Of a DNA stretch of 22,705 bases, positions 6,397-22,599 are shown one piece after another (the first letter of the stretch is position 1; each line of letters begins with the position of its first letter). This DNA comes from a virus, in IMG/VR virus record IMGVR_UViG_3300017963_000771, positions 1 to 22,705 of that record. One strand, given 5' to 3'. The notes beneath the pieces are model-generated. The model was given only the letters and a program-made list of their open reading frames with translations, was not told where the DNA came from and searched no databases. A program made the position numbers and the translations under genes.

Positions 6397-7353
6397 ATGT
6401 CGTATCAACCGAAGACCTATCGGGACAAGGGTGGGGACAGAATAGTCGTAGCGGATGGCGGCGAAATCCTGGTTCAGCCTGGGGGCAGGCTCACCGGGGG
6501 GAATCCCTACGGCGCGGCCGACTACTATGTAGACGGCAACCGCTCCAGCGCCGGCGATGGCTCCAGCTGGGACGATGCATTCGATACCCTGGCTGCGGCC
6601 ATCACCGCCAGCAATACCAGCATCGGCCTGTCGGCGAACCGCTGGTGGGCCAGGCGAAACCGGATCTTCGTCTGCGGCGACGAAGAGATCGACGAAGACC
6701 TGACCGTCCTTCCCGAAAAATGCGATGTGATAGGGGTCGGCTATGACTTGTACCCCTTCCCGCGCATCATCGGCAACCACACCATCGCCGCGGCTGCCAA
6801 AGGAACCCGTTTCATCAATTGCGGTTTCTGGGACCAGGACGGGACCGCAGACCTGTTCGTGATCCCGGCAGGCTGTCACGGCCTGGCCTTCCTGGGTTGT
6901 ACCTTCCTCCCGAAGTCGGGCGGCTCCAGTGGGAAGGCCCTGGAAATCACAGACTCGGCCCACGTGCGGATCGAGGATTGCAATTTCGACGTACTGGCTG
7001 GCAGTATGACGAATATCTTCGCCCTGGCCATCAGCATCGAGGGAACGGCCAGCCCGCACGACTTCCTGATTCTCCGAAATCACATCACGGCCACGCTCGG
7101 CATTCACATTGCCGGGTCCGCAGCGGCGGTGATGGGAAGCCTGATCGGCGAGAATATCATTCGGGCCACCGGCCTGGCGATCAATGACGACACGGACGAT
7201 GTTCAGGTTGTCAATAATCGTTGGATGACGGACGTGGACACTTCGACCAGCACCGCAGGCTACGACTTCAATTTGCAATTGGCGGCGGGGAATATCCAGA
7301 TGGGCGCTTCCGGTCTTTGTGACACGATCCCTTTCACCAAGATCGCGGAGTAA
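6397..7353 (+). CDS. Right-handed beta-helix protein, putative head fibre or spike
   Basis: The product has 318 residues. Residues 1-35 (MSYQPKTYRDKGGDRIVVAD followed by GGEILVQPGGRL) form a short glycine-rich segment resembling the capsid-anchoring N-termini seen in phage head-fibre proteins. From about residue 42 it reads as a parallel beta-helix: YYVDGNRSSAGDGSSWDDAF is the usual pectate-lyase-like opening, and repeated strand-turn units such as FINCGFWDQDG, LAFLGCTFL, VRIEDCNFDVL, LILRNHI and VQVVNNRW follow. Such folds bind or cleave polysaccharides in phage spikes. The position inside the head cassette, before the connector genes, argues for a capsid-borne rather than tail-borne fibre. 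No catalytic residues can be assigned by eye, so it may only bind glycans. The fold call is good and the role is inference. Confidence 0.75.
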   Translation: MSYQPKTYRDKGGDRIVVADGGEILVQPGGRLTGGNPYGAADYYVDGNRSSAGDGSSWDDAFDTLAAAITASNTSIGLSANRWWARRNRIFVCGDEEIDEDLTVLPEKCDVIGVGYDLYPFPRIIGNHTIAAAAKGTRFINCGFWDQDGTADLFVIPAGCHGLAFLGCTFLPKSGGSSGKALEITDSAHVRIEDCNFDVLAGSMTNIFALAISIEGTASPHDFLILRNHITATLGIHIAGSAAAVMGSLIGENIIRATGLAINDDTDDVQVVNNRWMTDVDTSTSTAGYDFNLQLAAGNIQMGASGLCDTIPFTKIAE

Positions 7354-7414: not shown

Positions 7415-7930
7415 ATGCCTGTGGTTCGATTTCCCGAATACGCCAGCCTGGTTAGAGCGGGCCAGGTCTTTGGCGTTTCCAACCAGGCGGTGAAGAGCAC
7501 GACCGCCGCCCTGGCGACCACCTGGACCGGCCTGGCCATCAATAACCCAACCGGCTCGGGCGTTAATCTCGAAATGCTGGGCTTCCATTGCCAGCAGGTC
7601 GCCGCTGGGGTAGCTGGGGCCGTGGGGCTGATGATCGCAAATAGTACCGGCATTGCTGCGGAACTCACCCCGAAAAACCAGCTGATCGGCGGCGGGGCTG
7701 GGAAGGCCCTGGCCGATACTGCCGCCACCATCGGAACCCCGATCCTGTACCGGGTGTTCGGTTCGCTGGGGTCGGTGGCCACCACCGCTTACGCCCTGGA
7801 GCAGGGAATCAACGTAGACCTGAAAGGCTCGTTGATAATCACGCCAGGAAATACGGTGCTGACCTACACCACCGCCGCCACCACGAACGCGCTGATCTTT
7901 TCGTTTCTCTGGAACGAGCAGCCCGTTTAA
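7415..7930 (+). CDS. Hypothetical structural protein, first of two tandem paralogues
   Basis: This 171-residue all-beta protein is rich in Ala, Gly, Thr and Val, with no signal peptide or clear membrane helix. It aligns with its downstream neighbour over two blocks: TWTGLAINNPTGSGVNLEML (about residues 36-55) and the C-terminal block TPILYRVFGSLGS to FLWNEQPV (109-172). It is therefore one copy of a duplicated gene. Its place between a probable head-fibre gene and the connector genes suggests a virion surface component, such as a capsid decoration or head-fibre partner, but no function can be assigned. AAGGAG at 7400-7405, 9 bases upstream, supports the start. Confidence 0.7.
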   Translation: MPVVRFPEYASLVRAGQVFGVSNQAVKSTTAALATTWTGLAINNPTGSGVNLEMLGFHCQQVAAGVAGAVGLMIANSTGIAAELTPKNQLIGGGAGKALADTAATIGTPILYRVFGSLGSVATTAYALEQGINVDLKGSLIITPGNTVLTYTTAATTNALIFSFLWNEQPV

Positions 7931-7946: not shown

Positions 7947-8480
7947 ATGCACGATATTACCCGCGAGTCTTACCAGATTGTGCAAGCCTGGGGCGGGAAA
8001 TATACCGGCTGGGTCGAATCCGACCAGGTATGGGCGGTGACGAATGATGGCCCTTCGTCCACAACCGAAGGGAAGACTTCACCCTGGCTCGGGCTGGGGA
8101 TCTACAATCCGCCCGACTCAGGGGTTGAAGTTATCATTCTACATATCTGTTCGGCCCTGGCCAGCCCTGGCCCTGTCCCCCTGGCGCACCATGGAGCCTT
8201 CGGGGTTCAGTGCGTCCACGAACTTACCCCGACAAGCCTGCTGGAGCCTGCAAACCAGCATTTCGGCCATGGGGGCGGGAACGCGGTCGTAGCGTTTGAC
8301 GCGGCCACCTTTACCGCCTGCACGCTGCAGCGCATTCTCGGGGAAGTGGGATCGGTTCACGAGGACGTTAACGGGGGCATGGTCCTATATCCAGGATACA
8401 GCCTATTGACGCACTTCACGAAGGCCCTGACGGATGCCGTGATTTCAACGTTTCTATGGGCCGAGGAACCCATAGAATAA
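7947..8480 (+). CDS. Hypothetical structural protein, second of two tandem paralogues
   Basis: This 177-residue protein is homologous to the preceding gene product. Shared features are PWLGLGIYNPPDSGVEVIIL (residues 46-65) and an ending with LQRILGEVGSV and STFLWAEEPIE, which match LYRVFGSLGSV and FSFLWNEQPV in the other copy. It differs in the middle, where it carries more His and Cys residues (for example AHHGAFGVQCVHEL). Divergence between copies suggests an old duplication with specialisation, perhaps two related subunits of one surface assembly. The start has only a weak ribosome binding site (GGCAGGT). A strong terminator-like hairpin follows seven bases after the stop. Function is unknown. 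Confidence 0.7.
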   Translation: MHDITRESYQIVQAWGGKYTGWVESDQVWAVTNDGPSSTTEGKTSPWLGLGIYNPPDSGVEVIILHICSALASPGPVPLAHHGAFGVQCVHELTPTSLLEPANQHFGHGGGNAVVAFDAATFTACTLQRILGEVGSVHEDVNGGMVLYPGYSLLTHFTKALTDAVISTFLWAEEPIE

Positions 8481-11586: not shown

Positions 11587-13551
11587 ATGGCAATAGAAAT
11601 CGGCGCACTTCGCGCCATGCTGTCGGCTTCCTCGGCCGCGTTCGCTGCGGATATGGGAAAGGCCCGACAGGCTTTGCAAACGAATGCTTCAAAGATGCGC
11701 CGCGCCATGGGCCAGGTCGGGGATGCGTTCAAGTCCGCGCTCGGGCACCTGAAAAGGTTTAGCGGCCTGGCCATTGCAGGCGGCGCCGCTGGTATGGCCG
11801 CGCTGATAAAGAAGTCGATCGACACCGCCACCGAACTCGGGAAGTTTTCTACTGCTGTTGGTGTCTCGGTTGAATCCCTTTCCTCGCTGAACTATGCCGC
11901 TGCTTTGACCGGCGTGGAACTGGAAGACTTGGCCGATGGACTGAAGACGCTGGCTGAAAATGCCGTGGACTTTGCCATCGACACCGGTCCTGCGGTGGAA
12001 GCCTTCAAGGCGATGGAGATCAACGTAAAGGACAGTAACGGGGCCATAAAAGCCGCCGATGTCCTTATGCTGGAAATGGCAGACAAGTTCGCCGCTTTGG
12101 AGGATGGAGCCCTAAAAACTGCCTTCGCCGCGCAAGTTTTCGGGGACGAAGCTGGGGTTCGGTTGACGACCTTCCTGAATCAGGGCTCGGAAGCTATCAG
12201 GCGGCAGATGGAGGAAGCCCGCCAGCTGGGGCTCGTGGTGGACGACGAAGCCGTAGCAGCTGCGCGGAACTTCAATGCACAGCTGGCCACCTTGACGGCC
12301 AGGCTTCAGGGCTTCGGAATGCAGATTGCCACGAATGCACTACCGGCGCTCAACCAGATGGTCGCAACCCTGGTGCAGGCGTCCAATTCAGGCGACAAGT
12401 TCGGAACGGCATTATGGAAATCGCTGCGGTCCCCTGGTGAACTGAAACGAGCCCGCGAGGAAGTGGAGAAGTGGGCCGAGATTCAGCGGAAAATGAGCGG
12501 CACCGTAGCCGAACGGCTGGAAGTCCTTCCGTATAAGCTGGTGGACTACGAAGGGGAACTGGCTGCGGCCCGCACCCGGCTGGCGATGGCCGAGTTTGAA
12601 GTACGGAAACAGAAAGAAGCCCACGACGCGGCGGTTGAGACAGCCAGGGCCGAAGAAGAGCGGCAAAAGCAGGAAGCCGAGAACCGCAGACAAAACACCA
12701 TCGCCACGACCGAAAGGCTGCTGGCCCTGGAGGAAGAAAAGCGGAAGAAAGAAGAACTGGAAGCCCTGGAGAAGGCCGCAGCTGAACGCGCTGAGCGGGA
12801 AGCCGAGCGAGTCAAAGACCTGGGGGAAGACACGATAACGAGCCTGGAAAGGGAAATCGCCCTTTTCGATTCCAGTTCCCGAGCGCAACGGGTGCAGTTT
12901 GAAATCGCACACGGTAATATGCAGAAACTCAGCGAAGACCATAAGCAGCGAATTCTCGAGCTGGCCCGCGAATTGGATCTGCTGGAAACCCTGGCCGAAT
13001 TCGATGAAGAATTCGCCGACATGGGAAAGGGTATCAATCAGACCACGGACGAAATGACGCGCAATATAGAGCGATGGGGGGAAAGATCCACAGACGCCTT
13101 GACCGAGTTCGTCACGACCGGGAAGGCGAGCTTTACGGACTTTGCCAATTCGGTCATACGGGACTTGATTCGGATGCAGGTTCAGCAGCGGTTGACCGGT
13201 CCCCTATTTGAAGCGCTCGGGGCCACCTTCGGGGCTCCAGCGGTGGAAGGCAGAGCCTTCGGCGGTCGGGTCCGCAGGGGGGGATTCTATGAAGTGAACG
13301 AGCGCGGGCCTGAACTGTTGCAGATGGGGAACCGTCAATTTTTAATGATGTCCCAGCGGGAAGGGAGCGTAACGCCCCTGGCCGGGGAAGCCGCTGGCAA
13401 GCTGGCAACCGGGGAAGGCCCGAACCTGCGGATTGTCAATGTCCTGGATCCGAACGTCATGGACGATTGGGCTTCGTCCCCCATGGGGGAACGGATCATT
13501 CTCAATACGATGGCTCGAAACAAGACGCAGATTAAAAGGATTCTGAATTGA
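11587..13551 (+). CDS. Tape measure protein (lambda-like C-terminus)
   Basis: The 654-residue protein sets tail length and helps DNA entry. The N-terminus is helical, with FSGLAIAGGAAGMAALIKKS (about 58-77) as a hydrophobic segment that could insert into a membrane. Residues about 335-417 are a long highly charged coiled coil (for example EEERQKQEAENRRQ and LEEEKRKKEELEALEKAAAE). From about 500 it has the lambda-type tape measure C-terminal motif ALTEFVTTGKASFTDFANSV followed by IRDLIRMQVQQRLTGPLFEA, then a glycine-rich GGRVRRGG and NERGPELLQ segment. At the usual 0.15 nm per residue the tail would be about 100 nm. No lytic transglycosylase or peptidase domain is visible. The start lies one base after the chaperone stop. 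Confidence 0.93.
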   Translation: MAIEIGALRAMLSASSAAFAADMGKARQALQTNASKMRRAMGQVGDAFKSALGHLKRFSGLAIAGGAAGMAALIKKSIDTATELGKFSTAVGVSVESLSSLNYAAALTGVELEDLADGLKTLAENAVDFAIDTGPAVEAFKAMEINVKDSNGAIKAADVLMLEMADKFAALEDGALKTAFAAQVFGDEAGVRLTTFLNQGSEAIRRQMEEARQLGLVVDDEAVAAARNFNAQLATLTARLQGFGMQIATNALPALNQMVATLVQASNSGDKFGTALWKSLRSPGELKRAREEVEKWAEIQRKMSGTVAERLEVLPYKLVDYEGELAAARTRLAMAEFEVRKQKEAHDAAVETARAEEERQKQEAENRRQNTIATTERLLALEEEKRKKEELEALEKAAAERAEREAERVKDLGEDTITSLEREIALFDSSSRAQRVQFEIAHGNMQKLSEDHKQRILELARELDLLETLAEFDEEFADMGKGINQTTDEMTRNIERWGERSTDALTEFVTTGKASFTDFANSVIRDLIRMQVQQRLTGPLFEALGATFGAPAVEGRAFGGRVRRGGFYEVNERGPELLQMGNRQFLMMSQREGSVTPLAGEAAGKLATGEGPNLRIVNVLDPNVMDDWASSPMGERIILNTMARNKTQIKRILN

Positions 13552-13552
13552 T

Positions 13553-16120
13553 ATGGCGGCGATCCTTTTTCCTTACCGGCCTATCGGAACCATCGTAGAG
13601 CGATGGGCCTGGAATACCGACCTGATTGAAGCCAAAGACGGGAAGGAAACTCGACGCGCCGTTCGGGAAGTCCCCCGGCTTTGGTTTGAATGGGATGTAC
13701 TGGTAACGGATCGGGTGTATAACTCACTCGTCCGTGCTCAACATTCCCTGACGTTCAAGGTTCCCATCTGGCAGGAAGGGGAAGTAACGACCAGCCAGAT
13801 AACCGCAGGCGCATCCACAGTGGCGGTTGATACTGATGTCGGGGACTGGCGAACATCTTTCATTATCTGGGCTTCTGAGACTTCGAACGAAGTTTTAGAT
13901 ATTGATTCCGTGGGCTCAGATATTATCAACATTGACGGGACAGTCGGTAGCACCTACGCAGCTGGGGCGGTGGTGGCACCGATCCGAACGGCCAGGCTGG
14001 CGAACCTGGTGCGCCTGCGCGACGATTCTATCTTCAGCCTGCTGCGGCTCACCTGGATTGTCACCGACCCGACCGCCTTCACGGCCTACGACTGGTCCGT
14101 GCAGCTGCTCGACGATGATGTAATTACGGACCTGTATGTGAAGGAAGGGGAATTCGTGGGCCGCACCCTGCAAGCGGCTGTCGAGGAATACGACTTCGGG
14201 ACCGGCGAGGTAGGTTTCGAGGTTCAGTACGACGAAGACAAATGGGGGATGCCGGCGATGAATTATGAAGTGTTCACCCCGGCTGAAGCCTGGCAATGGA
14301 AAACGTGGTTCCATAAAATGCAGGGCCGGTTCGGACATTTCTATCTGCCGACCTTCAAAAAGGACATTATACTCGCTGATGATTTCACCGCGTCCGACCG
14401 GTGGCTCACTATCGAGAATATCGGCTACGTGACTTATCTCGACGCACTGACCAGCAATAAATATTTACTGTTCCAGCGACCGGGGAACCTCGATCCGCTA
14501 CCCCGGTATATCACCGAATCAGCTGCGGTTGATTCAGATACAGAACAGATCCGGATTGACTCTAATCTCGGTTTCGCTGGTACACCGGAATCCTTCACGG
14601 CGATATCCTGGTTACATGCCTGTCGCCTGGCCGCTGACCAGGTAGAGCTTGCGTTTTCACCAGGAAGCCGAACGACTGTCTCTGTCCCTGTAATCGAGCG
14701 TATAACGAGCCTGGCCGATATTCCCGATCCAGACCCAGAAGAATACGAGATCGCGCTTTACGTGGCCGTTACAGGCACCTATGCCGACGATTATTATGAT
14801 ATCTTGACCGACCTCGGCTGGAATGTGACCATTTACGCAGACGGAACCTTGCCAGCGGTGGGGAACCATGATTTCGACGCCATTTTTGCACAGGGGTTCG
14901 GCATCAGCCAGGCCACGAACGGGGCTCTACTCCGGAGCTATGAGGCCGCAGGCGTCCCCGTCCTGGTCGGCTGTTCCTCGGGGGATATGTCCAGCAATTT
15001 CGGTTCGCTGCTGGCCGAGATGGGGTTCGCCACCAACAGCAACAGCAACAGCGGTTCGTCTCCGGTGAAACAGAAAGACCCGTCATTCCACCAGGTTGCA
15101 GGCCATGAAATTCTGAATGGAACCACGCAGGATGAAGAAACGGGCGAATGGTCAACGAACCTGCGGCTCGGGAACCCGCAGGCCATCACTACCCGAGATG
15201 ATGCTTACGGGAAGAAGGACTACATTTGGGACGATGCCAGCCCCATCGGGACGACGCTGGCCTGGTCCTGCATTCCTACTGACGATCCAGGGGACCGCAG
15301 GCAGATCGGTATAATTGCCATAGACGCCGGGGAAGACGGCTTCACAACGCGCTGTCTATTTCTGGGGCATCTACAGACCAGCAGCGCCGATCAAATGTCT
15401 GACGACGGAAAGGCGCTTCTGCACAATGGTTTGAAATGGATTCTCTCGGACTTCCAAAGTTTTGCCGCTATTCCGCTCACCCATTCGGGCCTTGACACCT
15501 TTGCGCTCACCGCCTCGGGCTCTGAATTCTGGAAGGGCGCGAACGGCTCGGCTTCCAGGGTAACTTCGGTCGATCCCCCGAACACCTATCAGGGAACCGG
15601 GCTGAATGTACAGGGGACTGACCAGTACATTTATAGCTTCGGGGAAGTCTCTGGAAATTGGGAATTTCATTGTCAATGGATCTATCGGGGAGCGGGCGCA
15701 GGGAACAACCGTTTCGGCTTCGCCTGGAACTGCCAGATAAACCACCAGACGGGCGGGGGCGTGGATATCCTCGACGGGTATGTCTTCCAGCTGGACAACG
15801 TTGACGGGGCCTGGGTGCGCTACTACGCGCAGTACAACGACCCGCCTGGGGAATGGGTGCAGGCCAGCCAGTTTATTTCGGGAACGTCGGCCGATTGGGA
15901 TGGTGATGTTTTATATAATTCTCAGCTTCGGTTTTACGATAACCTCTTTCAGTATCGCCAGTGGAAAGAAGGACAAGACGAACCGCCTGGAGCCTGGGGC
16001 GCGGGCGGCGCTGCCTACACCACTCCGAACTCGGGCCAGGTTGGGCTTTACATTGAACTCGGTAATCCTACCTGTGAAGTAGACATTTCGTATGTGAAAC
16101 TTTTCACCCCGACCTCGTAA
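13553..16120 (+). CDS. Composite tail hub-like protein with GATase1-like and ConA-like domains
   Basis: This 855-residue mosaic protein has three parts. Residues 1 to about 390 look like a tail hub/distal tail protein: FPYRPIGTIVERWAW and a two-part layout ending in WKTWFHKMQGRFGHFYLPTF, with a probable beta insertion at about 80-145. Residues about 397-632 form an alpha/beta domain like class I glutamine amidotransferase-like (GATase1/ThuA-like) folds: EIALYVAVTG, LGWNVTIYADG, DAIFAQGFG, AAGVPVLVGCSSGDM, and a terminal FLGHLQ with DDGKALLHNGLKWIL. Residues about 640-855 read as a concanavalin/LamG-like beta sandwich (WEFHCQWIYRGAGAGNNRFG, GYVFQLDNVDGAWVRYY, QLRFYDNLFQYRQW), probably glycan binding. 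The position right after the tape measure fits a distal tail component. Catalysis is doubtful, although Cys474 and His606 sit at suggestive places. Confidence 0.78.
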   Translation: MAAILFPYRPIGTIVERWAWNTDLIEAKDGKETRRAVREVPRLWFEWDVLVTDRVYNSLVRAQHSLTFKVPIWQEGEVTTSQITAGASTVAVDTDVGDWRTSFIIWASETSNEVLDIDSVGSDIINIDGTVGSTYAAGAVVAPIRTARLANLVRLRDDSIFSLLRLTWIVTDPTAFTAYDWSVQLLDDDVITDLYVKEGEFVGRTLQAAVEEYDFGTGEVGFEVQYDEDKWGMPAMNYEVFTPAEAWQWKTWFHKMQGRFGHFYLPTFKKDIILADDFTASDRWLTIENIGYVTYLDALTSNKYLLFQRPGNLDPLPRYITESAAVDSDTEQIRIDSNLGFAGTPESFTAISWLHACRLAADQVELAFSPGSRTTVSVPVIERITSLADIPDPDPEEYEIALYVAVTGTYADDYYDILTDLGWNVTIYADGTLPAVGNHDFDAIFAQGFGISQATNGALLRSYEAAGVPVLVGCSSGDMSSNFGSLLAEMGFATNSNSNSGSSPVKQKDPSFHQVAGHEILNGTTQDEETGEWSTNLRLGNPQAITTRDDAYGKKDYIWDDASPIGTTLAWSCIPTDDPGDRRQIGIIAIDAGEDGFTTRCLFLGHLQTSSADQMSDDGKALLHNGLKWILSDFQSFAAIPLTHSGLDTFALTASGSEFWKGANGSASRVTSVDPPNTYQGTGLNVQGTDQYIYSFGEVSGNWEFHCQWIYRGAGAGNNRFGFAWNCQINHQTGGGVDILDGYVFQLDNVDGAWVRYYAQYNDPPGEWVQASQFISGTSADWDGDVLYNSQLRFYDNLFQYRQWKEGQDEPPGAWGAGGAAYTTPNSGQVGLYIELGNPTCEVDISYVKLFTPTS
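15035..15052 (+). repeat. Three tandem AACAGC hexamers
   Basis: (AACAGC)x3 encodes Asn-Ser-Asn-Ser-Asn-Ser in a flexible stretch of the GATase1-like domain (about residues 495-500), followed by GSS. Copy number changes would keep the reading frame and only alter linker length. Confidence 0.8.
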
Positions 16121-16129
16121 GGGAAGACC

Positions 16130-16903
16130 ATGGCCGCAATCGAACTATTTGAATTCCTGGTCGATGGTACATACTACCGATACACTTCAGGCAGCGTCAC
16201 CGTTGATAAAGGGGGGAATGATTTTACTGCGGTTCCCATCAGCCGGGGAACCTTCCCCAATACGGACGACCTGAACAAGACGACCCTGGAAGTGAAGGCC
16301 ATGCGGGACAATCCTTTCGTCGTTGCCGCCCTGGCCAGCCCACAGCCTGCGGACTTGACGGTCTATGGGGAATACTCGGGCGGCACCTGGGCAACCATAT
16401 GGAAAGGGCGCATGGTGGCCCTGTCTCTACATGGGGCCGAGGCTACGGTCGTGACGGAAAGCCTGCTGTCGATCATCAACCGCGCCGCCCTGGTGGCCCG
16501 CTATCAGATCCTTTGCAGGCACGTTTTATTTTCAACGCAATGTGGTGTCACGAAGGCGACGTATAAGTTCACTGGAACCGTGGACGCCATCAATGGAACC
16601 ACCATCACCGTTACGGGCCTGAATGGGGAAACGGACGGATACTATGAAGGGGGGTACGCCAAGTTCGGAAGCTATGACTATAGAATGATAACCAGCCATG
16701 TCGGGAACGACATTGTGATTTACAACAGCGTCCCCGGCCTGGTGGTCACAACCGCCGTAGACGTGTATCCAGGTTGCGACCATTCCGAGACAGATTGCAA
16801 AGATAAATTTTCGAACCTGGTCAATTATGGCGGCTTCCCCTACATTCCCACGAACAACCCCTTCGGAACCGATGTAACCAAGCCCCGAAAGCGGAGAAGA
16901 TAG
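16130..16903 (+). CDS. Tail tip protein, BR0599/DUF2163-like (lambda gpL-like role)
   Basis: This 257-residue protein has two halves. The N-terminal beta domain (FEFLVDGTYYRYTSG, LEVKAMRDNPFV) matches DUF2163-type hub proteins. The C-terminal half carries the BR0599 signature PGCDHSETDCKDKF with NLVNYGGFPYIP. Four cysteines, C129, C138, C216 and C223, have CX8C and CX6C spacing. Lambda gpL, an equivalent tail-tip protein, holds an iron-sulfur cluster on four cysteines, so a cluster is plausible here. It probably links the hub to the central tail tip protein encoded next, as in gene transfer agents. AAGGGAAG precedes the ATG. The very basic C-terminus ends KPRKRRR. Confidence 0.88.
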   Translation: MAAIELFEFLVDGTYYRYTSGSVTVDKGGNDFTAVPISRGTFPNTDDLNKTTLEVKAMRDNPFVVAALASPQPADLTVYGEYSGGTWATIWKGRMVALSLHGAEATVVTESLLSIINRAALVARYQILCRHVLFSTQCGVTKATYKFTGTVDAINGTTITVTGLNGETDGYYEGGYAKFGSYDYRMITSHVGNDIVIYNSVPGLVVTTAVDVYPGCDHSETDCKDKFSNLVNYGGFPYIPTNNPFGTDVTKPRKRRR

Positions 16904-16914
16904 GAGCGGGAACG

Positions 16915-19341
16915 ATGCCCTTAATAGAGAGTATCGGCGTATTCGTCTTTATGAAGGCGGTTGAATATCTCAACCAGCCCCGGCATTATTCAACCTCGGT
17001 TCACGATCCGTGGGAAACGCTGGATATACCCGAAGCCGAAAGCGGTTCCCCGATTCCAGTTATCTTCGGAACGCGCTGGCTGAATGTGCCGAATGTGGTA
17101 TGGTATGGGGACACGAAGACGCAGAATGTGAAGGTGAAAGAGGGCTCGATCCTTCCCTTCGGCATCGGGGACAAAAAGACAACGGTACATCAAAAGTATT
17201 ACATGGGGATGCACCTTGTATTGTGCCATGCTCCGATTGATGCGGTGAAACAGATCCGCGCCGAAGGGGCAACGCTTTATTCAACCCCAGACATTACCAC
17301 GAACACCACGATTTCGATTGACAAGGAAAATGCCTTCGGGGGAAAGCTGCAATACGGGGGCGTTGTGGGGGATGTAGACATTGAATTCGGCGGGGCGGCT
17401 CAACCTATCAACACGTATTTGTCGGGGATTCTGGGCTCCGATATTCCCGCCTACAGGGGCGTTGTCGGGGCGGTCTTGAATCAATGCTATGTGGCGGCTC
17501 AATCCGCAGAAGTGCGGCCCTGGTCTTTCTACCTGTCAAACCTGGACAGCAACAGCTGCGGCCCGAATTCCCTGGATATGAACCCCGCCCACATTATCGA
17601 CCTGTGTTTGACGGAACCGTGGGGCCTGGGGCGGGATTCGGCCGATGTGGATTCAACCTCATTCACCACAGCGAACACGCAGCTGGACACCGAAGAACTT
17701 GGCTTGTCGTTGGCCTGGATGAGCAGCGCACCCATTCAAGAATTGATTGAAAATGTACTGCGTCATATCATGGGGGTTTTATATACCGACCCTGAAGACG
17801 GTAAGTTTCATTTAACCCTGATGCGGAACGGGGATTCGTCGGCCCTGTCTTTGGATGAAACAAACGTAATCGAGATTATTTCCTACAGTAAGCCGCTGCT
17901 GACCGAACTGGTCAATCAGGTTATAGTCAAGTACAAAAGCCGGGACGACCGCGACCAGACTATTACCCTACACAACCAGGGATTGATTGAACAAACCGGC
18001 GTCGTCACCACGCAGGAAATCGAATACGATATGGTGGTGGAGGAAGCCACCGCGCAGAAACTTGCGGCCAGGGATCTGCGGAACCTGTCAACGCCCCTGG
18101 CCCGTATCGAAATGCTGGTGAACCGGGAAGCCCTGGATGTCCGGATCGGCCAGATTGTGACGCTTACTTGGGACCGCTATAGCCTGGATGAAACAGATTT
18201 TCGGGTGATGGAAATTGATTACGGCAATCTACAAGGCGGGGAAATCCGTATCACCGCTGTTGAAGACATTTACGGGGTGGATACAGCCGTCTACGCTTCC
18301 CCCCCTGCAACGAAGTGGGTGAACCCTTTCAATGAACCTGCGGACGCTACGAACCGCTATGTCTATGAATCCCCGTACTGGGAACTGATTCGGTTTTTCG
18401 GTTCCACGACAACTGTCTGGGACGAGATTGCCGACGATGCAGGCTGGGTGCAAGCGGCCATCGAGAAGCCTTCAGGGGACGCCTTTCAATATGAATTCTG
18501 GACGAGATTGACTGCGGATTCCTATGACGAGGAAGATGATATCGCCGATTTCAGCCCGACCGGAACCTTGACGGAAGACCTTGACCCAGAAGTAACCACC
18601 AGCACGACCTTGACGGAAGTCTATGATTTTGACCTGGTGGCCCTGAATACGTACTGCATCATCGGGGACGAATTCTGTGAAGTGACGGCCTTCAATGCCA
18701 CGACCGGGGCTATCACTTTAAAGCGCGGCGTACTGGACACGGTTCCGGTGTCTCACTCGCTGGGGGATCGGGTGTATTTCGCACAGGATGCAACCGCAGA
18801 CGATCCGACCGAATACGCCTCGGCTGATGTGGTGAAGTCAAAGGCCCTTCCTTCCACATCGCTCGGAACCCTGGACATAGGGGACGCGACGGAAGACACC
18901 ACGACCATGGACGACCGGATGTATCGGCCGTATCCCCCTGGTAACTTCCAGCTGAATTCGTCGGCCTGGCCCGCCTTCATCACCGGGGCGCTGACGGTCA
19001 CTTGGGCGCACCGCAACCGGCTGACGCAGATTTCCGGATTCACCCAGCAAGACACCGGCGATATCGGCCCTGAAGCCACGACCACTTACACCGTCAAAAT
19101 CTGGGACGAGGAAGACGACCTGATCGTCAATTCCACCGGGATCGCCACCACCAGCTACGCCCTGTCGATTGCAAATGAAATCACCCTTTCGGCCCTGGCA
19201 GCTGGGGCGCGGCCGAATGAGACAATGCGGGTGCTGGTGTCTTCCCAGCGCGACGGGTTTGATTCCTGGCAGGAACACGATTTCGTGATTGTCGAATGCC
19301 GAGGTTATGGCATGTTTTACGGAGCCTATTACGGGGAGTAA
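16915..19341 (+). CDS. Large tail tip protein (lambda J / GTA megatron-like)
   Basis: This 808-residue protein is probably the central tail tip or host-contact hub. GSPIPVIFGTRWLNVPNVVW near residue 45 is a typical opening of these proteins. Residues about 240-460 contain the phage-tail_3-type core (IQELIENVLRHIMGVLYTDP, LTELVNQVIVKYKSRDDRDQ, RIGQIVTLTWDRYSLDETDF). A domain with ALNTYCIIGDEFCEVTAF and TGAITLKRGVLDT follows, then a fibronectin III-like C-terminal region (FITGALTVTWAHRNRLTQ, YTVKIWDEEDDLIV). It starts 11 bases after the BR0599 gene, leaving no room for the NlpC/P60 peptidase gene usually found here. AGGAG supports the start. A TIM-barrel glycosidase region, as in true GTA megatrons, is not visible. 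Confidence 0.88.
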   Translation: MPLIESIGVFVFMKAVEYLNQPRHYSTSVHDPWETLDIPEAESGSPIPVIFGTRWLNVPNVVWYGDTKTQNVKVKEGSILPFGIGDKKTTVHQKYYMGMHLVLCHAPIDAVKQIRAEGATLYSTPDITTNTTISIDKENAFGGKLQYGGVVGDVDIEFGGAAQPINTYLSGILGSDIPAYRGVVGAVLNQCYVAAQSAEVRPWSFYLSNLDSNSCGPNSLDMNPAHIIDLCLTEPWGLGRDSADVDSTSFTTANTQLDTEELGLSLAWMSSAPIQELIENVLRHIMGVLYTDPEDGKFHLTLMRNGDSSALSLDETNVIEIISYSKPLLTELVNQVIVKYKSRDDRDQTITLHNQGLIEQTGVVTTQEIEYDMVVEEATAQKLAARDLRNLSTPLARIEMLVNREALDVRIGQIVTLTWDRYSLDETDFRVMEIDYGNLQGGEIRITAVEDIYGVDTAVYASPPATKWVNPFNEPADATNRYVYESPYWELIRFFGSTTTVWDEIADDAGWVQAAIEKPSGDAFQYEFWTRLTADSYDEEDDIADFSPTGTLTEDLDPEVTTSTTLTEVYDFDLVALNTYCIIGDEFCEVTAFNATTGAITLKRGVLDTVPVSHSLGDRVYFAQDATADDPTEYASADVVKSKALPSTSLGTLDIGDATEDTTTMDDRMYRPYPPGNFQLNSSAWPAFITGALTVTWAHRNRLTQISGFTQQDTGDIGPEATTTYTVKIWDEEDDLIVNSTGIATTSYALSIANEITLSALAAGARPNETMRVLVSSQRDGFDSWQEHDFVIVECRGYGMFYGAYYGE

Positions 19342-19869: not shown

Positions 19870-22599
19870 ATGAAATACGCAAAGCAGCTTTTTCTCGTTG
19901 GGCTGTTCCTGGCCCTTTCGGCCACGCTGGCAGCTGGGGGGATTCATACCCATTTACCCCGAGGGGTGAACGCTGCGCACGACACCGTTGAAGTGGATGC
20001 CGGCGACCAGTTCATCGCCGCGAACGTGGACGCTGACACGGTGGATGTGACCGGGGATGTAACCGCAGGCTTTTTCTATGGGGACGGCTCCAACCTGACC
20101 GGAGTGGGCCTTTCTGCTTCTTCTGCGGTGACTCTTTCTGCAAAGGCAGGCGAGAATATTGATGCGGGGGAAGCAGTATACATCTCGGGGGCAACCGGCC
20201 AGGTTCCGCAAGTTTCCCTGGCTGATAATACCGATCAATCAAAATCCCAAGTAATCGGCGTGGCGGCTGAAACGAAGACGACCGGACAGACGATTCTCAT
20301 TCGTGTCAAGGGCCTGGTAACCGGGCTCGATACATCAACGCCAGGCTGGAGCGATGGTGAACAGCTGTACTTGTCTGCGGCTGGGGCGCTGGTCAATTCC
20401 CGGCCCACTTCGGGCGAAGTGTGGACCGTCGCCTACGTGGCCTATTCCAATGTAAGCACCGGCAAACTTTTAGTCGCCATCGGGACCGAACCGCATTACC
20501 TGGCAGCTGCCAGCGGGGAGGATGTAGAAATTCGGCTCGGGGATTCAGGCGGGGTTACGTCCCTGGAGATTGAAGACTACGGCGATAATGTGGTGGCGAA
20601 GATCAATAGCGACGGGGGATTCCTGGCAACCGATTATGTGCTCGATGGAACTACCCTGACGGCCACCTTTTCAGAGGCGAATTCGGCCCTGGATGGGATC
20701 GGGGTAACGGTCACCGCTGCGAACTTGACCGAACTCACGGACGCCTCTGAAACTACCCTGCACAGCCATGCAGGCGGCGGCGGCGCACTGGACGATTCAG
20801 TTACCACCGATTCCATGCTCATAAATGATGAATTGACGACCGGGGGTTTTCTGCGTCGCAGAGAAAGGGCGGCTTTCAAATTGCAGGATATTCGGGACGG
20901 GGCCGACAACGGATACTCCATTCAGGATATCATTCAATACAAAGACGAATACTTTGCTTCTATGGATCTCGGGGCCGGTGGGTATGGTATTCTGTTTCAT
21001 ATGAACCCTGACACTTCATCATATGGCCTATTCACCGAAGAAGACAATCCAGGCAGCGGGCGCGCGCCCTGGTGTTTTGCCATCTATAAAGGCGACCTTT
21101 ATGTGGGATATGGACAGGATGCCAACGACGGCGATATTGCTGTCTGGAACGAAGCCCTCGGCGACTGGACTGTGGTCTATGACGGTTCCTATGATACCGT
21201 CTACGATTTGCAGGTTTATGGAGATTCCCTTTATGCGGGAATGGGGGATGCGTCCGGAGAGGGGGATATCCTCTCGACTGGCGATGGAAGTTCCTGGGTA
21301 GTGACTCATAACACGATAGACTATACCGCCAAAGCCCTGGAAGTGTGGAACGGAAAACTGTATGCCGCTACATCCACCGCCGCAGCTGGCGGATATGGCT
21401 ATCTGTGGGAATACGATGGGGATACCTGGACGGTAATAGGGAACCCAAACACGACCCACGATATTATATGCCTGAAGGGCTTCGGCAAATATCTATTTAT
21501 GGGTATGGGGGACAGTTCCAATGAAGGCGACCTTTACACCTGGGACGGGGACGCCTTCAATACTTTTTCTCTGGATACTTCCTACGACAGAATAGACGCC
21601 CTGGAAGTGTATAACGGAAGGCTGATAATCGGCTATTATGACGGGTCTGACGGTGGCGATGTGGTGGCGTTAAATGGGGAAGATGGGACGACGACTATTC
21701 TGAACCTGAGCGGAACAACGGATGCAACCGCAGCCCTTTATGCCGACAGGGATGGAACCTTGTGGATCGGTTCGGGATTCGGGAATGACCAAGCGGCAAT
21801 CTATAAATACAGTTCGGGGGGCAATCAATATCAGGGGGAACAAGATCCGCTTTTATATGATCGACACTTCCGAAAAAAAGTGACATTTAAGGATTCGATT
21901 CAAACATCAGGGGCGTTTTATTCCACGAACAATATTTTGCTCGGGACAGAGAATTCCCATGGCGGCGATTTGTCGATTGTTATCTCTACCGGAACCAGCC
22001 CCACGGAAACGGTGACTGGCGCTGCTGCTTTGTTTGTGGAAGATATTGCGGGTAGTGCAGAAATGCGGGTGCGGGATGAAGCCGATAATGTGACTACTAT
22101 ATCCGCTAATGTGGGGGGATATCCTGCCAGCCTGGCGGTCGATGCCCTGCACCCTTATGCTGCCATGTTTGAAAATTCAAGGGTCGGTCTTCGGACCTAC
22201 ATGGCCACGCGCAGAGCGTATAAATTGTTGCAACAAATGGCCCATGCTGGGGGATTTTTGTCCGCAGATTCCACGATTATTGCCGAGGTGGACATATCGG
22301 TCCGCGATTGGGACGCCGATCAAGAACAGCTGAGAATAAAACACCAGCTGTTACGAGATGCTTGGTTTCTGGAACGCAACAGGCTGATCGCCCTTTCCGA
22401 TTCTATTCTGGCAAATTGGGAAGAACCAGCCGAGGCACCGATTCTGCGGGCTTTGGGCCATACCATTGAACCGCCCCTGCCTAAAATTCCAGACTTGAAA
22501 GACGCACCCCCGTTATATGAAAAAAAGCCCCGCCCTGCCTGGATAACAGAATCCCTTCGTAGGCAGGGCAAAGAGTACCCCCCGCCATTGAGGGGGTGA
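19870..22599 (+). CDS. Fibre-like protein with signal peptide and seven-bladed beta-propeller
   Basis: This 909-residue protein has several regions. Residues 1-22 (MKYAKQ, then LFLVGLFLALSATLAA) are a classic Sec signal peptide without a lipobox cysteine. About 64-80 contains FFYGDGSNLTGVG, common in fibres and surface proteins. About 86-206 is a beta domain found in many phage fibres (AGEAVYISGATGQVPQVSLA, GLVTGLDTSTPGWSDGEQLY). About 345-650 holds seven repeats of roughly 41 residues with a L-Y-G/A core followed by a D-W-T-like end, fitting a beta-propeller. About 700-746 has LFVEDIAGSAEMRVRDEADN, typical of phage fibre C-terminal halves. The end is helical and then proline-rich (IPDLKDAPPLYEKKPRPAW). 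AAAGGAG upstream supports this ATG. It is probably a receptor-binding or surface-displayed protein. Confidence 0.75.
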   Translation: MKYAKQLFLVGLFLALSATLAAGGIHTHLPRGVNAAHDTVEVDAGDQFIAANVDADTVDVTGDVTAGFFYGDGSNLTGVGLSASSAVTLSAKAGENIDAGEAVYISGATGQVPQVSLADNTDQSKSQVIGVAAETKTTGQTILIRVKGLVTGLDTSTPGWSDGEQLYLSAAGALVNSRPTSGEVWTVAYVAYSNVSTGKLLVAIGTEPHYLAAASGEDVEIRLGDSGGVTSLEIEDYGDNVVAKINSDGGFLATDYVLDGTTLTATFSEANSALDGIGVTVTAANLTELTDASETTLHSHAGGGGALDDSVTTDSMLINDELTTGGFLRRRERAAFKLQDIRDGADNGYSIQDIIQYKDEYFASMDLGAGGYGILFHMNPDTSSYGLFTEEDNPGSGRAPWCFAIYKGDLYVGYGQDANDGDIAVWNEALGDWTVVYDGSYDTVYDLQVYGDSLYAGMGDASGEGDILSTGDGSSWVVTHNTIDYTAKALEVWNGKLYAATSTAAAGGYGYLWEYDGDTWTVIGNPNTTHDIICLKGFGKYLFMGMGDSSNEGDLYTWDGDAFNTFSLDTSYDRIDALEVYNGRLIIGYYDGSDGGDVVALNGEDGTTTILNLSGTTDATAALYADRDGTLWIGSGFGNDQAAIYKYSSGGNQYQGEQDPLLYDRHFRKKVTFKDSIQTSGAFYSTNNILLGTENSHGGDLSIVISTGTSPTETVTGAAALFVEDIAGSAEMRVRDEADNVTTISANVGGYPASLAVDALHPYAAMFENSRVGLRTYMATRRAYKLLQQMAHAGGFLSADSTIIAEVDISVRDWDADQEQLRIKHQLLRDAWFLERNRLIALSDSILANWEEPAEAPILRALGHTIEPPLPKIPDLKDAPPLYEKKPRPAWITESLRRQGKEYPPPLRG
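22520..22569 (-). terminator. Possible minus-strand intrinsic terminator inside the fibre gene end
   Basis: GCCCTGCCT (22532-22540) and AGGCAGGGC (22561-22569) form a perfect 9-base-pair stem, extended inside by GGAT/ATCC (22541-22544 with 22551-22554). Read on the minus strand, the stem is followed by GGGGC and seven Ts (22526 down to 22520), the form of an intrinsic terminator. The hairpin overlaps codons for the fibre C-terminus. No convergent minus-strand gene is visible before the window ends, so it might block antisense transcription, or the symmetry could be chance. Confidence 0.45.
22577..22597 (+). other. Hairpin overlapping the fibre stop codon
   Basis: ACCCCC (22577-22582) pairs with GGGGGT (22592-22597) around a nine-base loop, ending in the first base of the stop codon. 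No T run follows on the plus strand. It resembles the other GC-rich hairpins that follow structural genes in this window. Confidence 0.4.

Follow-up and report, generated by a model that had tools for sequence, protein, structure and literature searches.

A described counterpart of the protein considered here is gp49 of phage JBD30, in which residues 175–567 comprise two tail-tube-like β-sandwich cores, each with an OB domain, and build a trimeric ring, while domains I and II (residues 2–174), the first of which wraps the fibres, lie outside that ring (PMC11445458). Other distal tail proteins (Dits) are decorated with additional modules: the evolved Dits of Lactobacillus, Lactococcus and Streptococcus phages carry carbohydrate-binding modules and promote adsorption (PMC7291167, PMC10688798), and the outward domain of the Dit of roseophage R4C, a Gram-negative siphophage, is counted by its authors among glycan-binding accessories (PMC10276861).

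The window, i.e. the whole stretch of 22,705 nucleotides (22.7 kb) of an IMG/VR virus record that was analysed here, is a siphophage head–tail module with genes for the small and large terminase, portal, a ClpP-like protease, an HK97-type capsid, connectors, tail tube, tape measure and the tail tip. Starting 2 bases after the stop of the tape-measure gene, an unbroken ORF runs from an ATG at 13553 to a stop codon at 16118–16120 and encodes a Dit that continues into two further domains (Table 1).

Table 1. The extended Dit, its parts and its neighbours in the tail gene block of the window.
Feature	Position	Strand	Basis or remark
Tape measure protein, immediately upstream of Dit	11587..13551	+	PF09718, E 5e-15
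Distal tail protein with C-terminal extension	13553..16120	+	855 aa
Dit core, residues 1–385	13553..14707	+	equivalent to domains III–VI (186–547) of JBD30 gp49
Pro/Asp-rich linker, residues ~386–396 (SLADIPDPDPE)	14708..14740	+	sequence; indel relative to L002
α/β domain, residues ~397–634, GATase1-like fold (low confidence), elbow Cys474	14741..15454	+	AF2, Foldseek
Predicted ConA-like (L-type) lectin domain, residues ~637–855	15461..16117	+	AF2, Foldseek, family alignment
Upper baseplate protein (JBD30 gp50-like)	16130..16903	+	Phage_BR0599, TIGR02218
True baseplate hub (JBD30 gp53-like)	16915..19341	+	phrog_1101, E 1.6e-241; phrog_1180, E 1e-14
gp51-like small protein domain fused to hub N-terminus	hub residues 7–77	+	phrog_1180

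A Dit with a C-terminal extension in two phages

Residues 3–382 of the protein match PHROG 1082 ('tail assembly protein') with an E-value of 3.2e-68, residues 13–370 align to residues 186–547 of JBD30 gp49 (PDB 8rk3; E 7e-17), and the same core also matches the distal tail protein 8vjh (E 4e-8). The alignment to gp49 spans the two tail-tube-like cores together with the two OB domains, domains I and II being absent from the window protein, and the gene lies where a Dit gene is expected, between the tape measure and the upper baseplate and hub genes. By these matches, residues 3–382 are a Dit and not a hub. Because the core holds two tandem cores like those of gp49, its ring would probably be a trimer.

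The same three-part protein is encoded by a second phage (contig L002), where it is 57% identical overall and reaches the contig end. Another contig from the same metagenome (L014; 3300028610) overlaps the 3′ end of L002 with its own 5′ end by ~55 bases with few mismatches and supplies the last ~40 codons as well as the genes downstream, and the gene order of the two contigs is that of the window. The fusion is real because the three-part protein recurs in L002; an assembly chimera was rejected, since an independent syntenic phage carries the same fusion. A first-pass annotation of the window had described a tail hub-like protein fused to a GATase1/ThuA-type and a ConA-like lectin domain and had proposed looking for the fusion in other phage genomes. 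Its three-domain layout is borne out by the Dit match, the predicted models and the recurrence in L002, and the fusion stands as an intact ORF, with the difference that its first part is a Dit and that the hub is encoded by a separate gene (Table 1).

Beyond these two phages, from which alone the fusion is known, neither the middle nor the C-terminal domain was found in phage records, plasmids, IMG/VR and GTDB searched by pattern or in ~400 genomes searched by HMM. Four further candidates (L003–L006) were rejected as relatives, being RecD-like helicases with a chance 8-mer in common. To place the extension among related Dits, 152 loci were collected with the hub as bait; most contained a Dit, and more than 100 of these were complete. 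The Dits fall mainly into two groups, one with an N-terminal extension of ~130–230 residues and usually at least two genes between tape measure and Dit, the other ~375–400 residues long and mostly encoded directly after the tape measure. Among the more than 100 complete Dits, a C-terminal extension of more than 13 residues is confined to those of the window and L002, the apparent extensions of 81–83 residues in L114, L118 and L028 being alignment-edge effects or a broken ORF, and 12 phage records from several genera likewise show no C-terminal Dit extension where the genes are annotated. A strict pairing of N-terminal extension and fibre genes was discarded as a general rule, since in Chi-like phages the extension is present but the intervening genes are missing.

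The survey also turned up other decorated forms. Five Rhodobacterales-type loci (L086, L102, L104, L107 and L118; Dit ORFs of ~556–561 aa) contain ~140 additional residues inserted between the two cores, apparently a separate route to a decorated Dit, and two others (L009, L010) encode Dits of 757 aa with an N-terminal extension of 356 residues, twice the usual size.

Several neighbours of the Dit gene are worth recording as well. JBD30 gp53 and gp51 correspond to phrog_1101 and phrog_1180, respectively; the N-terminal phrog_1180 domain of the window's hub is a second gene fusion within the same tail tip, as JBD30 has a separate small gene for gp51. The window lacks both of the small genes that separate the upper baseplate protein from the hub. 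Relatives of the hub point to Burkholderiales or other Proteobacteria as possible hosts. Further downstream, a 909-aa protein (19870–22599) that begins with a hydrophobic, signal-like stretch and contains propeller-like repeats (Reg_prop, weak match) is likely to be the receptor-binding protein. Shortly past the capsid gene, the head gene block encodes a 318-aa protein (6397–7353) with a weak right-handed β-helix match, and two adjacent paralogues of unknown function (7415–7930 and 7947–8480) lie between the capsid and connector genes; the best match of both is a single L002 gene (76% and 35%), suggesting a duplication in the window's lineage.

Predicted folds of the two added domains

The ~470 residues past the Dit core have no noteworthy sequence match in Pfam, PHROG, NCBIfam or the PDB, and the C-terminal domain matches no curated family by sequence. 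The latter does carry a phage motif, R-x-W-x2-G-x2-E-P, at residues 802–812 (RQWKEGQDEPPGAW), which suggests that the domain is common in phage tail proteins: a scan of IMG/VR for R-x-W-x2-G-x2-E-P-x2-W yielded at least 52 stretches that share the domain pattern, among the matches listed, and the window's domain aligns over its full length with domains from other phage proteins. On the resulting family profile it scores 13.2 bits, compared to at most 10.7 in 500 shuffles, a score that is partly circular, the aligned stretches having been selected through a motif taken from the window; the C-terminal domain of L002, which is without the EP motif, does not score on this profile.

Using 33 aligned rows, AF2 returned an all-β model of the C-terminal domain (pLDDT 55, pTM 0.54), and Foldseek against the PDB matched this model to ERGIC-53, VIP36, Emp46/47, calreticulin and legume lectins, with probabilities mostly of 0.99–1.00 and E-values down to 1.9e-4. 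This moderate-confidence model supports a ConA-like lectin fold for residues ~637–855, in agreement with the jelly-roll lectin domain that had been read from the sequence at the outset. Sugar binding is usual for ConA-like folds. A joint alignment that included lectin fragments was rejected, the fragments having fallen on the wrong half, and no useful match emerged when the first AF2 model was compared with viral models by Foldseek.

For the middle domain, the AF2 alignment consisted of two sequences, and pLDDT reached 75–87 over most of the first ~100 residues, the rest being poor (mean of 37 for the two-domain model). Up to Cys474, the modelled strand–helix order is Rossmann-like, and the top 12 Foldseek matches in the PDB are all class I GATases, including GMP synthase, aminodeoxychorismate synthase and PhzE, with probabilities of 0.90–1.00 and none below an E-value of 0.001. 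In addition, the L002 homologue weakly matches OST48_N (E 0.009), which we take to be a family of the GATase1 clan, and the domain end, FLGH...LLHNGLKWIL, resembles by eye the ThuA end, LGH...L..GL.WA. Among known folds, the low-confidence model is closest to GATase1.

Assignment to a family within or beyond this fold is another matter. Profile comparison gave 20.0 for ThuA, 21.5 for GATase and 24.6 for response regulators against a shuffled-column baseline of 13 ± 2.5, in which single shuffles reached 20–22; all three values lie above the mean of the shuffled columns. These scores fit an α/β pattern without naming a family. Single-profile HMM tests were not significant, the ThuA profile (PF06283) did not match, and a comparison with the 3keto-disac_hyd profile was not decisive. 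The profile check for ThuA or GATase1 that had been proposed at first thus did not single out a family for the middle domain: a GATase1-like fold agrees with the low-confidence model and the one weak profile hit, whereas the suggested membership in ThuA is not supported, its scores being no better than those of GATases or response regulators.

The same data leave some room for a different α/β fold, of the flavodoxin or receiver type, which would not alter the layout of the protein. Only ~100 residues are well modelled, GATase and ThuA profiles do not outscore those of response regulators, and receiver and flavodoxin folds do occur in the Foldseek list. They rank after the GATases, however, which take the first 12 places, and neither the OST48_N match of L002 nor the ThuA-like domain end is in their favour. 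We consider such a fold less likely than a GATase1-like one, though with an appreciable probability.

Proposed role of the C-terminal arm

Taken together, we read the protein as an evolved Dit whose C-terminal arm, composed of a GATase1-like and a lectin domain, aids adsorption to a host glycan, and we assign this reading a probability of roughly two in three. Residues 1–385 would form the Dit ring joining the tail tube to the baseplate, from which the C-terminal ~470 residues would hang as three two-domain arms. The terminal ConA-like lectin would bind a host surface polysaccharide and the α/β domain, without catalysing a reaction, would act as a scaffold or weak binder. The arms would promote adsorption alongside the main receptor-binding protein. 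Of the glycan-binding or glycan-modifying tail-tip fusion postulated by the first-pass annotation, binding is accordingly the half that we retain.

A protein-binding function would be an alternative for the arm as a whole. Here, the extension would replace the lateral tail fibres (gp47/gp48 in JBD30) and bind a pilus or another protein instead of a glycan. The gene order is compatible with this idea, given that the tape measure and Dit genes of the window are not separated by gp47/gp48-like fibre genes and that the fibre-wrapping N-terminal part of gp49 is missing. Yet, such a replacement is not required because many short-Dit relatives without the fibre genes have no extension either, and the ConA-like fold favours glycans. 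We therefore regard fibre replacement as improbable.

Divergence between the two phages bears on whether the arm has any role in adsorption. Identity to L002 is 70% for the Dit core, 44% for the middle and 45% for the C-terminal domain, while the neighbouring upper baseplate protein, hub and DUF2793 protein are 71%, 66% and 78% identical, respectively. The arm thus diverges faster than the core, at a pace close to that of the probable receptor-binding protein, the 909-aa product, which is among the fastest diverging (43% to its L014 homologue). This would fit host contact, although the tape measure (46%), which is no host-contact surface before ejection, diverges equally fast, so that divergence alone is no proof of it. 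Decorated tail proteins can be dispensable, and the extension might in principle be a passive structural decoration without a role in adsorption; its divergence, much faster than that of the core, and the usual sugar binding of its terminal fold make this quite improbable.

Equally hard to sustain is an enzymatic reading, with the α/β domain acting on host glycans as a Cys-dependent hydrolase or transferase and the lectin keeping the substrate in place. GATase folds are usually enzymatic, and Cys474 follows the fourth strand of the modelled domain, at a nucleophile-elbow position, and is conserved in L002 together with His513 and His518, which may possibly point to an unusual active site. Cys474 and the GH pair with His606, at the ThuA-like domain end, indeed lie where the first-pass annotation had placed them; the active site that it drew from them is not supported. 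In L002, Ala replaces His606 and Glu replaces Gln608, so that the GATase triad is not conserved: an intact HxE is found in neither protein, and the Cys-His-Glu triad was accordingly not recovered when GATase membership was assessed. Moreover, the elbow changes from GCSSG in the window to GCGSS in L002, the conservation of one Cys between two sequences at 44% identity is close to expectation, and no match links the domain with any known glycan-active family. A more specific version, in which a divergent GATase1-fold Cys hydrolase uses Cys474 with His513 or His518 to modify host glycans at the tail ring, is less credible still, and we know of no description of a catalytic role for distal tail proteins of the JBD30/PHROG 1082 family.

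Relation to known systems

The adsorption arm proposed here suggests that the tail-tip ring of Gram-negative siphophages can carry C-terminal lectin modules, in parallel to the internal insertions in the Dits of Gram-positive phages, and makes the protein a candidate for a GATase1-like fold put to use in a virion. Were binding to hold, the arm would give the phage a second means of host recognition, separate from the usual receptor-binding proteins, with consequences for predicting host range from phage genomes. Within the part of the literature covered, the combination of domains was not found described, as the first-pass annotation had supposed: 'distal tail protein' and 'glutamine amidotransferase' were not paired, nor was ThuA mentioned in the texts on phage or distal tails.

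The best fold matches of the two added domains come from outside these tail systems. The C-terminal domain most closely resembles the L-type lectins ERGIC-53, VIP36 and Emp46/47 (1r1z, 2dup, 2a6w), from which it differs at ~12% identity, the lectin assignment being one of predicted fold. Similarly, the middle domain finds its best fold matches in the GATase1 superfamily (GMP synthase subunit A, ThuA, OST48) and has the elbow Cys in common with it, whereas the triad is not conserved, sequence matches are not significant and the model is of low confidence.

Among Dits, JBD30 gp49 (PDB 8rk3; PMC11445458) resembles the window protein in its double core, its OB domains and its place in the tail gene order. 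It has the N-terminal domains I and II and no C-terminal extension, whereas the window protein shows the reverse, with two C-terminal domains added, and JBD30 has the fibre genes that are absent here. Like the window protein, the evolved Dits of Gram-positive phages, which act as accessory adhesins, combine a Dit with predicted carbohydrate-binding domains. Their modules, however, sit in internal Dit loops, while the extra domains of the window protein are C-terminal, past residue ~386, include a GATase1-like domain and are attached to a JBD30/GTA-type Dit. The R4C Dit, in turn, forms a hexamer in which each subunit has a single core and an internal insertion domain but no lectin or GATase-like extension. 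The principle of a decorated Dit is already known; the novelty lies in where the modules are placed, in the GATase1-like domain and in the type of phage.
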